Assembly (NCBI RefSeq): GCF_000422445.1 | Contig: NZ_KE383837.1 | Location: 806,001 to 870,000, forward strand | Length of the DNA stretch: 64,000 nucleotides | Reading direction: 5' to 3' | From: Paenibacillus assamensis DSM 18201 | GTDB taxonomy: Bacteria > Bacillota > Bacilli > Paenibacillales > Paenibacillaceae | In this document: positions 20,383 through 27,186 of the stretch, piece after piece | Position numbering within the stretch: the first letter of the stretch is position 1 | Layout of the letters: each line of letters opens with the position of its first letter | Translations under genes and position numbers: made by a program | The notes under the pieces: generated by a model | The model's input: the letters and a program-made list of their open reading frames with translations, nothing else | What the model was told of the DNA's origin: nothing | Database searches by the model: none

Positions 20383-23013
20383 TTAAGCACCTGCCTGCTG
20401 ACTTACCAACTGCTCAACGAGCGCAAGCGCTTCGCTCAGCTTCTCGGCATTCTTGCCTCCGGCCTGTGCCATATCTGGACGACCGCCGCCGCCGCCGCCA
20501 GCTGCAGCAGCAATCTCTTTAATCATTTTACCCGCATGGAAGCCCTGTTTAACTAACTCTGGAGCGACCGATACGACAAAGTTAACTTTGCCTTCACTTG
20601 CAGCACCAAGTACGATAATCGCTTGTTCCAACTTCGTCTTCAGCTCATCCGCTGTCGTACGAAGCGCATCCATGCTTCCAGCGTTCACTTGCGCCGTCAA
20701 CACTTGCACACCTGCAACCGTACGTACTTGATCTGTCAATTGCCCCGCTTCCATACTGGAAAGCTTCGCTAATAACGATTCGTTTTCACGTGCTAGTTCT
20801 TTCTCACGTGCGAACATCGCCTCAACACGTTTAGGCACATCCGTAACATTGGACTTGAGCAGGCTCGCAGCTTGCTTCAACACTTCCAATTGTGCCTCCA
20901 TATATTGATACGCATTACGACCTGTAACGGCTTCAATTCTTCGTACACCAGATCCAATTCCGCTCTCGCTTACGATTTTGAATAGACCAATTTCAGATGT
21001 ATTGTTTACGTGACAGCCACCGCACAGCTCAATGCTGTATTGACCAACTTGTACGACGCGAACGACGTCACCATATTTCTCGCCGAACAACGCCATTGCG
21101 CCCATCGCTTTCGCTTCATCAATCGATTTCAATTCGATCTTAAGCGGAGTGCCCTTCCAAATCTGTTCGTTCACACGACGCTCGATATCTGCCAATTCTT
21201 CAGGCTTAATGCTGCCTAGGTTCGTGAAGTCGAAACGAAGACGCTCGGTTTGCACCAAAGAACCTGCTTGGTTAACATGCTCGCCAAGTACGTCCTTCAA
21301 CGCTTGATGAAGCAAGTGTGTAGCCGTATGGTTTTTAATGATGTCTTCACGCTCTACACGAGCTACAGCCGCTTCGATTGTCATTCCTTCACGCAGCACG
21401 CCTTCTTCTACTGTTACGATATGAACATGTTGGCCATGCGGTGCTTTTTTCATATTTTCAACACGAGCTACAAGACCAGTGTCTGTCAACACACCCGTAT
21501 CGCTTACTTGTCCACCGCTCTCTGCATAGAACGGAGTACGATCAAGGATGACTTGACAAGTTTGACCTGCAGACGCTTCCTTAACTAGCTCGTTGTCAGC
21601 GATGATCGCCAACACCGTGGAAGATGTTACATACTCATCATAACCAACGAATTCGCTTTTAGTCGTAAGGTCAGCAAGTGGCCCACCTTGTACGTTCATG
21701 CTCTCAGTCACTTGACGTGTGGAACGTGCGCGTTCGCGCTGCTCTTCCATGGACGCATCGAAGCCTGCGCGATCAACCGTCAAACCATGCTCTGCCGCAT
21801 ATTCTTCCGTCAAATCAAACGGGAATCCGTAAGTGTCGTACAATTTGAACGCATCAGGCCCGCTAATTTGCGTGCGTCCTTCTTTCTTCGCAGCTGCTGC
21901 CATTTCAGAAAGAATCGCAAGACCGTCAGCAAGCGTCTCATGGAAACGCTCCTCTTCGTTCTTAATTACCTTTTCAATGAACTCACGCTTCTCTACTACT
22001 TCTGGATAGTGAGCACCCATTACATCGCCAACTGTCTTAACAAGCTCAACCATGAATGGACGGTCCATACCAAGCATTTTTCCGTAGCGTACAGCACGGC
22101 GAAGCAAGCGGCGAACAACATAACCGCGACCTTCGTTAGATGGCAACACGCCATCCCCAGCTGTAAATACAACCGTACGAATGTGGTCCGCAATTACTTT
22201 GAACGCGACATCCAATTCTGGATTTTCTTTATATTTTACGCCTGCAATACGGCTTGTCTCTTCAATAATCGGCATGAACAAATCCGTATCGAAGTTCGAA
22301 TCCACATCCTGCAAAATGGAAGCGAAACGCTCCAAACCTGCGCCTGTATCGATGTTCTTATTCGGTAGCGGTGTATAGCTGCCGTCTTTGTTATGGTTGA
22401 ACTGGGAAAATACCAAGTTCCATACTTCTAGGTAGCGCTCATTTTCACCACTTGGGTAGTTTTCTGGATCGTTAGGATCTCCATACTTCTCACCACGGTC
22501 ATAGAAGATTTCCGTACATGGTCCGCAAGGTCCTTCACCAATATCCCAGAAGTTGTCTTCCGTCTTAATGATATGATCAGCTGGTACGCCAATCTTCTCA
22601 TTCCATAGCTTGTAAGCTTCCTCATCTTCAGGGAATACTGTGACATATAGACGGTTAGCATCAAAGCCAATCCACTTTTTATCTGTCAAGAACTCCCACG
22701 CCCATTCAATCGCTTCTTCTTTAAAATAATCTCCAATAGAGAAGTTTCCGAGCATTTCGAAGAACGTATGGTGACGACGAGTTTTACCTACGTTTTCAAT
22801 GTCGTTTGTACGAATACATTTTTGCGAGTTCGTAATACGCGGATTGTCAGGCATAACACGTCCGTCAAAATACGGTTTAAGCGGTGCCATACCCGCGTTA
22901 ATCCACAACAAGGATGGATCGTTATGCGGTACGAGCGATGCGCTCGGTTCGATATGATGTCCTTTACTCTCGAAAAATTGAAGCCATTTAGCACGAATGT
23001 CACTTGCTTTCAT
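20383..23013 (-). CDS. alaS: Alanine-tRNA ligase AlaRS
   Basis: An 876-residue class II synthetase that charges tRNA-Ala and edits mischarged Ser/Gly. The aminoacylation domain (1-about 370) begins with the canonical SKGH and [15 protein letters not shown] segments. The editing domain carries [11 protein letters not shown] and CGGCHV, which supply the zinc-type His/Cys residues. The C-Ala domain holds a glycine-rich [15 protein letters not shown] segment. The ATG follows AGGAGGAATCCTTC. Expression is controlled by the T-box leader upstream. It is the first gene of an eight-gene operon ending with trhP2. A caggtgctt/aagcacctg palindrome covers its stop codon (20376-20393). Confidence 0.96.
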
Positions 23014-23049: not shown

Positions 23050-23402
23050 TGCGTAAAAAAATAAAAATCGCCCCTGACAAATGCAGGGACGATTAAATAT
23101 CGCGGTACCACCCTGGTTATCGCTTGGCGTACATGCTGGGCATGCAACTGTAGTCGCATCGAACAAGCACGATGCAAGACTATACATAAAGCGATCTCCT
23201 CGACGTTGATAACGGGTTCGACCCGGTGAAGTTCATTCACACTCCGTAACTAGCGTTCAGCGGCACTTCATGGTGAAGATTCTTACAGCCTATATATAGC
23301 GTATACGCCATACAAGGAATCTTCTCTCTGGACCAAGGGCTGCGGCTTACTCGGTTTCATCTACGTTTTGACCAATATTTTGACCAATAAAAGTATCGTT
23401 AA
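23050..23402 (-). promoter_or_regulatory. Alanine-specific T-box riboswitch of the alaS operon
   Basis: The minus-strand leader holds the invariant T-box AGGGTGGTACCGCG (23100-23113). An intrinsic terminator at 23055-23094 (AATCGTCCCTG / CAGGGGCGATT then TTTATTTTTTT) lies between the T-box and the gene. Stem I shows the AGTAA loop-E half (23347-23351 region) and, on its 3' side, GAAC followed by GCT at 23252-23254 and then A. GCU is an alanine codon, matching the regulated gene. Uncharged tRNA-Ala should stabilise the antiterminator and raise expression of the whole operon. Confidence 0.93.
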
Positions 23403-23446: not shown

Positions 23447-25858
23447 TTAGCGACTTCCACCCTGAGAAGAACTCGTTAAATAACCGACCTCTTGAAGCAC
23501 ACGTTGCAGCATAACCGCACCTTGCGCACGAGTAGCATCGCCTTGAGGAGCAAACGTTTTAGCAGTAAGACCTGAAATGAGTCCCGCTTCTACTGCTTTG
23601 GCTACATCCCGCTTGGCGTAGGAGCTTATTTTACTCCGATCCGAGAACTTCTCAGCAGCAGAACCGCCTTCCGGTAACGGTTGACCAGCAGCATTCATGA
23701 CACGAACGAGCATCATCGCCATTTGTTCACGAGTAACCGTCTGATTTGGACGGAACGTACCATTACTGTATCCGCTAATAATGCCTGCTTTAGAAGCTGC
23801 CCCAATCATACCTGCCATTGGATGTGAATCACGAATATCATGGAATTGCGCTGCACCAGTCTGATCCGGCTTCAAGCCAAATGCTCGAGCGAGCAGTACA
23901 GCGAATTGCGCCCGTGTCAGCTTTTGTTCTGGCGAGAAGCGGTCATTGGATGTTCCTTCAATAATAAACTTCGAGGCAAGCGTCTCAATGGACGCACGCG
24001 CCCAATGCGAGCTCGTATCATGGAAGGACTTGTTGCGCTCTGCTAGTGCGACGCTAATATTGGACTTGCCAGTAAACTTCACCAACGTAATTCCACGCTC
24101 TACTTTGATTGTATTTGCCGTGTATAAGATCCGATCAACGTTAGAATCGTATTGAATCGCAGATAAATGCCTTGGATGATAAACTGACGTTAAGCGGTAA
24201 GCATGCTGGACATCCGCTGTGATCGTACGTGGTGCCTTGCCATCTACAAAGGAATACAAGGTAAACTTATGAGGACTGATAAGCTGGCGTGCACTGAGCT
24301 GACTAAGCTTCTGAGTCAGCTTAGTTAAAGCTGGTTCTTCCTCCACATGAATAGCTACCCATATCGAAGAATCATTTGCCCACTCGGTACGGATGCCTGT
24401 GTAATTCAGGTTATTTAGCGGAATCGAATAAACCGCATCCTTGAATTTAAGTGAAAACTTAGCTCCACTAGCCTGCTTCGCTGCTGTCTCTAGAACTTGC
24501 AGCGGAATAACGATGATTCCACTGTTCTCTGTGACTGGAACTTCATAGATAACATGTTTAGCAGCGCTGCTCTTGGCTGCATACTCAAGTGCAGAAGCGA
24601 AATGATCCTTATGGAGTACATAACGGTTGCTTGGCACTGCACTGATGTGAGACGGGGATTGCGCTGATTGTTTGACAGCTGAATTCTGATTCAGCGTATA
24701 GATACCATGTTCAAGCAACCACTCATATGGGGCATCCGTAAGATGCGCTGGACGATTACCCGCCCCTGGCGTGTTTGGCTGACCTGGTGTACCCGGATTA
24801 CTTGGGTTACTTGGTGTACCCGGCACTCCACCTGGCCCCCCTGGCCCCCCTGGCCCCCCTGGTCCTCCTGGGCTGCCGGGATTTCCTGGATTACCCGGTG
24901 GTTTGCCTGGTACACCGGGATTACCGGGTTGACCTGGATTCCCTGGCTTGCCAGGCTGCTCTGGTGTGCCCGGTACTCCTGGTTTGCCTGGGGCAGGGGC
25001 ATCAGGCTTGCCCGGTTGGCCAGGTGAATGCGCACCATAAATAACAGGAACTTTTACTAATGCCGCGAGACGATTGCCTACTATATCTTCTAATGGCGCT
25101 TGGCCGGGATTGTAACTTAACGTAATGGTATCATTATGTTGTGCTTGCTGCTTAAGTTGGATAGTCACGATGTTAGCATTGGAAGTGAGGCTGCTTAAAC
25201 CTAGAGGCTGATTATTACGATATACATGGAATTGCTGTAAGGCAGTCAGAGTTACAGGCTTAAGTCTTTCTGAAAAAACAAGCGTTACGACATTGTCTCT
25301 CATCGCAGCTTGGCTAAGTACAGGTGGAGAAGTATCATTGCCAGCTTGTGTCCTAAACACCCAATCTCGATCATAAATCCCTACAAAGTCACCAACGTTG
25401 CTGCGGAATGTACCATAATCGATCCATACCGTATATTCTGTATCTGGATTTAATGTTGTTCCCACATGCCATTCGATAGATCGATTGTTGTTCGTTATTT
25501 TAACGCGAGCATCACTGACCGGAATTCGTTCCACATCGTCTCCCATCAAAGTTCGAATCGCTAGCTCGCCATTTCCCTTTACAACCGCCTGATCGAAAGT
25601 AAGCTGAAGCACTGGCCGCGTGCTCACTTGTTGTGCGGCTCTCGCTGGAGCCATATTAACTAATCGTACCGCTTTCCAACTATTTGCCGCTGGTCCTACT
25701 GATGCCATTTCTGGGGAAGTATTCGTAGAGGAATTATTCGGCGACAACGGTTCTGCATTCGCGATAGTCGAGTCTTCTGGTGCAGCAGAAGCTGCCAGCG
25801 GGTGCAATACCACCCAAGCAGATACGGCAAATACGAAGCATGATCTTAATAATTTCAC
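23447..25858 (-). CDS. S-layer homology domain protein with Ig-like domains and collagen-like tract
   Basis: An 803-residue secreted cell-wall protein. The signal peptide (about 1-25) ends Ala-Ser-Ala-Ala. An SbsA/Big_5-type Ig-like domain (about 62-170) and a second beta-sandwich of the SwmB-like type (about 175-275) follow. Residues about 277-368 are Gly/Pro-rich, largely Gly-x-y triplets, with a GGP run encoded by a 9-bp DNA repeat. About 240 residues of unassigned sequence then lead to three SLH repeats (about 611-790), which anchor proteins to pyruvylated wall polymer. The GTG start follows GAGGAG. No terminator separates it from the alaS promoter. The ligand or structural role is unknown. 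Confidence 0.88.
24825..24880. repeat. 9-bp tandem repeat encoding Gly-Gly-Pro
   Basis: The unit ctggccccc recurs about four times with a degenerate continuation (ctggtcctc), inside the collagen-like tract of the SLH gene. The period is a multiple of three, so copy number can vary without a frameshift. Confidence 0.75.
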
Positions 25859-26115: not shown

Positions 26116-27186
26116 CTACAACGTTCTACGCCTTACGAAGTACGTAAATACATGTTGGAGCACTACCTTCAGCGCCGCGAAGAAAGGTACTGCCAATATT
26201 AAACCGACCACCCCAGCTATTTCACCGCCTACAAGCAAAGCGAAAATGATCGACAACGGATGCATATGAAGCGTTCTGCCTACCACTTGTGGGGATATCA
26301 CATTCCCCTCTAATATTTGACAAGCCGTATTTACCAGAATAACCATCAGCATCATCTTGAATGAAATAGTTGAGGCAACAATCAAAGCAGGAGCCGCCCC
26401 AAAATAAGGGCCTAAATACGGAATAATATTAAATATCGCCACCATCAAAGCCAACAGCAATGCATAAGGCATACCAATCAACCAATAACCGATATAAGCC
26501 AGCACCCCAATAATGACACAAACGAGAAACTGTCCACGAATATAACTGCCGAGCGCAGCATCAATGTCTTTGAACATCATGACAAAATGCTTGCGGTGGC
26601 TTCTAGGCACATAGGCAACTACCGTTCTTTCAAACACATCGAAGTCTTTTAAAATGTAAAAAATAAGAAACGGAACGATTAGTGCAACAAACAGCATATT
26701 AATTGTCGCACCAATATTGTCTATAAAATGAGTAATTCCTTTGCTCATCCGTTGTTCCAGCATAAACATCCATTCATTCATACCCGTCCGAAGCGTTGGC
26801 GGCATTAACGATGACTGACTAAGTCCATTCATAAATCGCTCCGCCTTCGCATTCAATTGCGGCATCTGTTGATTCAATTCTTCAAGCTGAGTCAACAGCA
26901 TAGGAATGGCGTTCATAAGAATGATGGTGACTGAGAAAACAAATACAGCATAGATGAGCAGCACCGCAATCGTACGGGGTACTTTGCGATCATTTAACAA
27001 CGATACAATTGGATTAAGTACATAAGCAATAATCATAGCCAAGAAGAAAGGCGCGAATATTGCTTTAAAAAACGTATACAAATGTCCAATAACGGGACGC
27101 AATAAATACAGCATATATAAAATAAGCAACCCGAGAAGCATATAAATGCCGTATACGAACAATTTATTTTTTAACAAACGCTCCAC
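26116..27186 (-). CDS. AI-2E family transporter (YrrI-like)
   Basis: A 356-residue polytopic membrane protein with helices near 10-30, 34-60 and 70-95, a hydrophilic segment (95-155) and five to six helices to residue 345, including IFNIIPYLGPYFGA. The length and position close to alaS match YrrI of B. subtilis. The start is a GTG with only a weak GGAG 11 nt upstream. It is separated from alaS here by the SLH gene. Substrate is unknown. Confidence 0.85.
   Translation of the reverse strand: MERLLKNKLFVYGIYMLLGLLILYMLYLLRPVIGHLYTFFKAIFAPFFLAMIIAYVLNPIVSLLNDRKVPRTIAVLLIYAVFVFSVTIILMNAIPMLLTQLEELNQQMPQLNAKAERFMNGLSQSSLMPPTLRTGMNEWMFMLEQRMSKGITHFIDNIGATINMLFVALIVPFLIFYILKDFDVFERTVVAYVPRSHRKHFVMMFKDIDAALGSYIRGQFLVCVIIGVLAYIGYWLIGMPYALLLALMVAIFNIIPYLGPYFGAAPALIVASTISFKMMLMVILVNTACQILEGNVISPQVVGRTLHMHPLSIIFALLVGGEIAGVVGLILAVPFFAALKVVLQHVFTYFVRRRTL

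Follow-up and report, generated by a model that had tools for sequence, protein, structure and literature searches.

The window, by which we mean the whole 64 kb (64,000 nucleotides) of Paenibacillus assamensis DNA that was analysed, contains on its minus strand an open reading frame of 803 codons that starts with GTG and fills positions 23447-25858 exactly. This frame encodes an SLH-domain surface protein. Its product opens with a probable signal peptide, judged by eye from the sequence (about residues 1-27; 25778-25858), which is followed by two Ig-like domains that Pfam assigns to Big_5 (residues 63-170; 25349-25672) and to SWM_repeat (residues 175-251; 25106-25336). Beyond these lie a Gly-x-Pro tract that is evident from the sequence (about residues 278-369; 24752-25027), a central domain without a catalogued family for which AlphaFold2 models are suggestive of a GAIN/ZU5-like fold (residues 370-610; 24029-24751), and three SLH repeats (about residues 609-803; 23450-24034) that Pfam recognises as three stretches with E 4.5e-38 and that match the solved SLH trimers 6bt4 and 3pyw. 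All of these features are read from the minus strand. Within the tract, Tandem Repeats Finder reports an array with a period of 9 bp, 4.6 copies and 93% match (24831-24871, minus strand), one of five arrays in the 64 kb, and when the array is read in frame each 9-bp unit is one Gly-Gly-Pro triplet. A sequence-only reading of this DNA had described two Ig-like domains, a 9-bp DNA repeat and three SLH repeats, and Pfam and Tandem Repeats Finder recovered all of them. Comparison with three sister species gives dN/dS values of 0.07-0.20 for the N-terminal part of the gene, the central part and the SLH part, so that purifying selection acts on each of the three parts that can be compared. We also note a 40-bp tandem array of 4.3 copies with 94% match elsewhere in the window, at positions 337-508.

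The downstream neighbour is alaS (20383-23013, minus strand), and the upstream neighbour is an open reading frame for an AI-2E-family membrane protein (26116-27186, minus strand), presumably a yrrI-like one. Between the SLH gene and alaS, Rfam places the T-box leader of alaS (23082-23372, minus strand; 66 bits, E 2e-13). The match spans all 219 model positions, and a default Rfam scan misses it because its score lies under the gathering score of 93. There is also a promoter-like site at 23437-23409 with 11 of 12 matches, sites of this kind being no commoner here than in shuffled sequences. Since both the T-box leader and the promoter-like site follow the SLH gene, alaS is probably under its own control.

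Distribution and descent of the gene at the alaS site

We located alaS in 60 relatives and read its upstream context in 57 of them (G031, G046 and G053 were left out), some of the stretches being shorter than 9.8 kb where contigs end. An SLH gene occupies the site in 15 of the 19 genomes of the genus (the P. alvei group) and in none of the 38 genomes outside it. Among the latter, alaS and the AI-2E gene are side by side in 26, separated by no open reading frame of 150 codons or more, an arrangement like the one that the sequence-only reading gave for alaS and yrrI in B. subtilis; 8 have other open reading frames between them, and 4 have no AI-2E gene in the stretch. Two genomes of the genus (G003 and G009) carry unrelated open reading frames at the site, by eye one methyltransferase-like and one transposase-like, and in a third (G010) the site is not scorable, since only about 490 bases of contig precede alaS. 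In G018 the AI-2E gene lies 322 bases from the alaS frame and the last 14 codons and the stop of the SLH gene stand between them; this relic (L069:9069-9113) reads VRLKRMLEQIEYLG, is identical to P. alvei at 13 of its 14 residues and is found with E 0.007 in that stretch. Because the terminal codons and the stop remain, we read the absence of the gene from G018 as a deletion.

A tree was built from the central and SLH parts of 14 of the 15 alaS-linked copies (the split copy of G015 was omitted), 15 second copies from the genus and 11 rows from the family. All 14 alaS-linked copies group together, set apart by a branch whose support is 98/100. The copies that bear the tract form a clade on a long branch (0.97), and its placement among the alaS-linked copies is weakly supported (80/58). 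The second copies were labelled "met" after an adjoining open reading frame that we take to be metK, a neighbourhood that was viewed by eye in the window's own genome only (L120), and they are not one group, because they need two changes on the tree. Given the presence of the gene across the genus, the relic in G018 and the single tree group, the SLH gene most likely reached the alaS site once, in or before the ancestor of the genus, and was lost at least once. The sequence-only reading had presented the gene as inserted beside alaS; the sharing of the site by 15 of 19 genomes, the grouping of 14 copies on the tree and the 14-codon relic speak against a new insertion there, and we rejected a recent mobile-element insertion on the first two of these grounds.

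The locus belongs to the P. alvei group and is close to P. arenosi. Over about 12.7 kb round the gene, the DNA is 95% identical to that of P. arenosi and 89% identical to that of the next two, and the related loci, ten in all, come from P. arenosi, P. agilis, Paenibacillus sp. SC116, P. profundus, P. alvei, P. aquistagni, P. dendritiformis and others. We note that two genomes carry, upstream of the alaS-linked gene and on the opposite strand, an additional SLH gene about 1500 codons long; that of G002 (L070:676-5283) is subtilase-like by eye, and that of G011 is the second open reading frame of L071 (791-5299 of the turned stretch).

Long and short stalks and the Gly-x-Pro tract

Ten of the 15 alaS-linked proteins are of a long form (1112-1168 aa) in which no Gly-x-x run reaches five, and an eleventh copy, in G015 (a contig that matches P. 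dendritiformis G25-126), is split over two frames (L078:5036-8513), which may reflect decay or an assembly error. The short form with the tract is limited to the window, P. arenosi, P. agilis and SC116. The long protein of P. alvei DSM 29 (locus L127, 1112 aa), the one long alaS-linked form that was scanned with Pfam, shares with the window protein its site beside alaS, its tree group and its order of signal peptide, Big_5, SWM, central domain and three SLH repeats, but it contains three Big_5 and four SWM stretches and no Gly-x-Pro tract. The central domains of the alaS-linked long proteins are 29-30% identical to that of the window. The second copy in the window's own genome (G000:C6, L120:4175-8563, 1462 aa) also combines Big_5 and SWM repeats, the central domain and three SLH repeats, but it lies at another site, has six Big_5 and four SWM stretches and no tract, and its central domain is 24% identical to the window's.

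In the short form, the Big_5 domain finds its best match in the Big_5 that comes first in the long forms (10 of 10), and the SWM domain in the last SWM (9 of 10; 8 of 10 for SC116). Because the match to the last SWM is only slightly better than those to the other repeats, which score close to it, the identity of the lost repeats is unsure. The usual stalk in the genus is a string of Ig-like (Big_5 and SWM) repeats, and these comparisons suggest that in the ancestor of the four species most of this Ig stalk was probably lost, with the first Big_5 joined to what appears to be the last SWM, and a Gly-x-Pro tract gained. The simplest route would be an internal deletion of Ig-like repeats together with growth of the linker before the central domain, the two steps coming in either order; on this route a short linker would have grown into about 90 residues of Gly-x-Pro, partly through slippage of the 9-bp repeat. 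An extended proline-rich chain measures about 0.3 nm per residue and an Ig-like domain about 4 nm; the roughly 90 residues of the tract could span the reach of about five lost Ig-like domains.

It is in the tract that the four species differ in length. Between the motifs YGAH and EWLLEH they have 101, 95, 93 and 94 residues, outside this stretch all four have 702 (P. agilis after subtraction of 7 residues of an upstream start), and every indel in their alignment falls inside it. Consecutive Gly-Gly-Pro triplets in the array number 4, 1, 1 and 2, and P. agilis and SC116 have one extra Gly-Gly-Pro elsewhere in the tract. The confinement of indels to the tract stretch agrees with the slippage that the sequence-only reading had proposed, and its expectation of a labile tract length was borne out in this comparison between species. 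Length changes of this kind could also mean that the protein serves chiefly as a component of a structural scaffold and that the tract is a neutral, tolerated by-product of slippage, the more so as no conserved binding motif is apparent in it. We consider this unlikely, if conceivable: the three-residue period of proline has been retained in the four species despite changes at other positions, and the span from flank to flank is held at 93-101 residues, an argument that, with four species, is not strong.

Proline is more regular than glycine in the tract. When the tract is tiled into triplets set on proline, with 5-9 residues falling outside the tiling, the four species have 28, 26, 26 and 27 proline-ending triplets, a count that is partly by construction because the tiling is anchored on proline, and glycine comes first in 22, 20, 18 and 20 of them. 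The longest run of proline-ending triplets is 11, 11, 15 and 13, and that of glycine-starting triplets, uninterrupted, is 8 in the window and 6 in each of the three sisters. The sequence-only reading had described a Gly-x-y tract here, and glycine runs of this length do not make a clean one. Six to eight triplets per species have proline and lack glycine (EQP, SNP, NTP, DAP, NRP, STP, TVP and ANP), and one triplet in every tract species, GGV, keeps glycine and drops proline. None of the 26-28 proline-ending triplets per species has proline in the middle (X) position in any of the four species, and PG occurs 23, 21, 19 and 20 times in the tract, which amounts to roughly 20 X-Pro-Gly sites in each chain.

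Five consecutive Gly-x-Pro triplets, sought as a DNA pattern, occur in 5 of the 19 genomes of the genus, and in the four tract genomes they are restricted to the alaS-linked SLH gene. The count by itself is not special, because a backward control pattern matches too (2, 4, 2 and 0 times in the four tract genomes, 7 times in G004 and once in G012); what is special is the confinement to this gene. The sole other place with the pattern in the 19 genomes is G006:C1:2072418-2072461, the minus strand of which reads, by eye, GEPGQPGEPGEPGEP.

The tract shares with bacterial collagen-like proteins of the Scl and BclA type a Gly/Pro period of three and a varying number of repeats. Those proteins are described as needing glycine at every third residue and as preferring proline in X and threonine in Y (PMC8968730), whereas in the alaS-linked tract proline stands in Y and recurs more regularly than glycine. 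The Pfam Collagen model (PF01391) finds no match on the coding strand of the tract, either at E up to 1 in a protein scan or at E up to 10 in a genome search that gave 52 matches, an absence that the composition filters of HMMER render less than decisive. At the place of the tract the model does score 30.7 bits on the opposite strand, in a match that contains a TGA stop; we rejected this as a by-product of the tract DNA, because GG-NNNN-CC encodes Gly-x-Pro on either strand. Matches in the PDB to collagens and to a spindle fibril (8zxl) were likewise rejected as signs of a true collagen, being composition-driven alignments whose best domain scores 16.4 bits with a bias of 45.2.

Apart from the opposite strand of the tract, nine open frames in the window's own genome lie over the Pfam Collagen cut-off. 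The make-up of five of these nine was read, from sequence stretches that overlap, and these five loci have Gly-x-y runs of up to 139 triplets, with proline in 3-66% of X positions and 0-7% of Y positions and with Y occupied mainly by Thr, Ala or Gln. We note that seven collagen-like frames over the cut-off form a cluster at G000:C1:338753-373302; a spore-surface role is known for collagen-like proteins and may apply to these.

Might the tract nonetheless be a real collagen, that is, a short triple helix whose Y-position prolines are hydroxylated by the organism's own prolyl 4-hydroxylase to give a stiff trimeric rod? The genome carries a prolyl 4-hydroxylase-like gene (L151:1697-2338, plus strand, contig C9), whose product is very like the Bacillus enzyme in PDB entry 3itq (E 9e-99), and 7 of the 8 genus genomes searched contain the Pfam family. 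The Bacillus enzyme is described as hydroxylating (PPG) peptides and favouring the Y position (PMC8968730). Because the genome carries such an enzyme, the Y-position prolines of the tract, at some 20 X-Pro-Gly sites per chain, the type of site that the enzyme favours, could be hydroxylated, and this would favour a triple helix. However, the enzyme family does not serve as a marker of the tract, since it occurs also in three of the four tract-less genomes tested (G002, G004 and G017), and the tract itself has uninterrupted Gly-x-x for only 6-8 triplets, 6-8 glycine-free proline triplets per species and no proline in X. Its coding strand finds no Pfam Collagen match, and no trimerisation domain was identified in the protein. 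Gly-Gly-Pro is, moreover, a poor former of triple helices. We regard a true collagen as quite unlikely.

The tract is likelier to be a proline-rich extended linker or spacer than a collagen triple helix, a reading that we base on the placement and regularity of its proline, which differ from those of the collagens of the same genome, and on the failure of Pfam Collagen to match its coding strand. The words "collagen-like" and "fibrous" in the sequence-only reading are doubtful, proline being steadier than glycine and Pfam Collagen passing over the tract yet matching nine other frames, and the label "collagen-like" should be dropped pending a test.

The central domain

Residues 370-610 match no catalogued family or solved structure by sequence, in keeping with the region of about 240 residues that the sequence-only reading had left unassigned. 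A Pfam scan of the full protein gave no match to them at E up to 1, a scan of these residues alone gave nothing but Tudor at E 0.17, and there was neither an NCBIfam match nor a PDB sequence match by profile. We considered a catalytic central domain and rejected it, the relevant Pfam and NCBIfam matches being single and weak (E 0.02-0.2, one member each), which is no proof of absence; the common catalytic domain that would have told against the sequence-only reading did not appear by sequence in the Pfam, NCBIfam or PDB searches. A profile built from 23 examples, several of which, though not the four from the tract clade, are cut short at the C-terminus, detects the domain at E values no greater than 1e-5 in 49 of the 60 genomes sampled from the order; the open frames that carry it are 340-2214 residues long. 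Among the matches listed in a search with the full protein, those that cover the central domain continue into SLH repeats.

AlphaFold2 modelled the domain of the window with pLDDT 88.5 and pTM 0.86 and that of P. alvei with pLDDT 87.2 and pTM 0.86, although the two models are not independent because the same ten sequences underlie both. In structure alignments the top matches are GAIN domains (CELSR1, with Z 7.8 for the window model and 8.1 for the P. alvei model, CD97 and BAI3), where a Z near 8 can reflect merely a common arrangement. Also at the top are ZU5 domains (of ankyrins for both models, of NLRP1 for the window model and of UNC5b for the P. alvei model) and axonemal chains of unstated nature (Z 6.5-7.7). 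Glycoside-hydrolase accessory domains rank below GAIN and ZU5, the dextranase rows starting at Z 4.3 for the window model and 5.7 for the P. alvei model. Plain Foldseek returned nothing with E below 0.001; an adenovirus fibre head comes first in its list, in which GAIN domains, at E 0.016-0.019, are mixed with glycoside-hydrolase domains. Pfam ZU5 is not among the matches of the 23 members of the central-domain set. We regard a GAIN/ZU5-like fold as suggestive only.

The GPS region of receptors has been described as a homologue of ZU5, and ZU5 domains are also described from bacterial surface proteins, where they have been proposed to cleave themselves (PMC3482391). The ranking of GAIN and ZU5 structures first by both models could accordingly be taken to mean that the central domain is itself autoproteolytic and cuts the stalk from its anchor, freeing the ectodomain. 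This seems to us extremely improbable. The His-x-Ser/Thr/Cys motif at which GAIN domains are cleaved near their C-terminus occurs in the last 25 residues of 0 of 23 rows, some of which are shortened there, Cys is present in none of the 23, and a His-x-Phe-Thr/Ser in the middle of the domain is found in just 7 of them; the Foldseek result also weighs against it. The central domain is probably a non-cleaving structural base domain.

Wall anchoring and the protein as a whole

That the protein is an SLH-anchored surface protein, as the sequence-only reading had it, is well supported at the level of sequence. Each SLH repeat has the Arg of a TRAE-type motif (TRAQ 648, TREQ 709 and TRAQ 776), motifs of this type being those of characterised P. 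alvei SLH proteins (PMC6081394), and the csaB pyruvyltransferase gene (TIGR03609, over cut-off) is present in all four tract-bearing genomes. SlhA of P. alvei CCM 2051T is, like the window protein, an SLH-anchored surface protein with a C-terminal SLH trimer, and its knock-out impairs swarming and biofilm formation (PMC3776848, PMC6081394). SlhA has, however, a CBM6 module and a gene that lies between wall-polymer genes and spaA (PMC3776848), whereas a Pfam scan found no CBM match in the window protein, the gene of which is sited at alaS. Because SlhA affects swarming and biofilm in P. alvei, adhesion or matrix organisation would be the natural function to expect of the window protein by analogy, which is an expectation and not a result.

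Other modular proteins of the genus Paenibacillus resemble the window protein in part. ChiW of Paenibacillus sp. FPU-7 is described as a modular protein that combines Ig-like domains with an SLH region and a Gly-Ser-rich low-complexity spacer loop (PMC5132251), but it also carries two GH18 domains and is an enzyme, and Pfam matches no catalytic domain in the window protein. We considered whether CmoA of Paenibacillus sp. NAIST15-1 might be the same protein and rejected it; CmoA has vWFA and IPT/TIG, and the portions of the source that describe it make no mention of SLH (PMC5072692). In the open-licence literature we found no report of a collagen-like/SLH fusion of this kind.

The protein is thus an ordinary kind of SLH-anchored stalk protein with an exchanged stalk. 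The explanation that we favour, and think probably correct, is that of a wall-bound SLH protein whose Ig stalk was mostly swapped for a Gly-x-Pro spacer in four sister species. On this explanation the protein would be secreted and held to the wall by its three C-terminal SLH repeats, with pyruvylated secondary cell-wall polymer as their ligand. The SLH anchor would bear a compact base domain of mostly beta structure, the stalk would carry the N-terminal Ig-like tip outward, and the tract would serve as an extended, flexible spacer of polyproline-II type that preserves reach, rather than as a collagen triple helix. A bolder combination would make the uncatalogued GAIN/ZU5-like domain a wall-side base under Ig stalks in Paenibacillales and the Gly-x-Pro tract a rod, in one clade, that is hydroxylated by the organism's own enzyme, giving a bacterial hydroxyproline stalk; we hold this combination to be very unlikely. 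GAIN domains sit beneath Ig or cadherin stalks in the adhesion receptors of animals.

The favoured explanation, of a stalk exchanged on a wall-bound protein, would make this locus a same-site example of the replacement of a folded Ig-like stalk by low-complexity Gly-x-Pro, one in which four species can be compared with ten long relatives. Hydroxylation of the tract, if shown, would make it a candidate natural substrate of a bacterial prolyl 4-hydroxylase. For the order as a whole, the analysis brings to light a conserved and uncatalogued domain adjoining SLH anchors, which a profile detects in 49 of the 60 genomes sampled.
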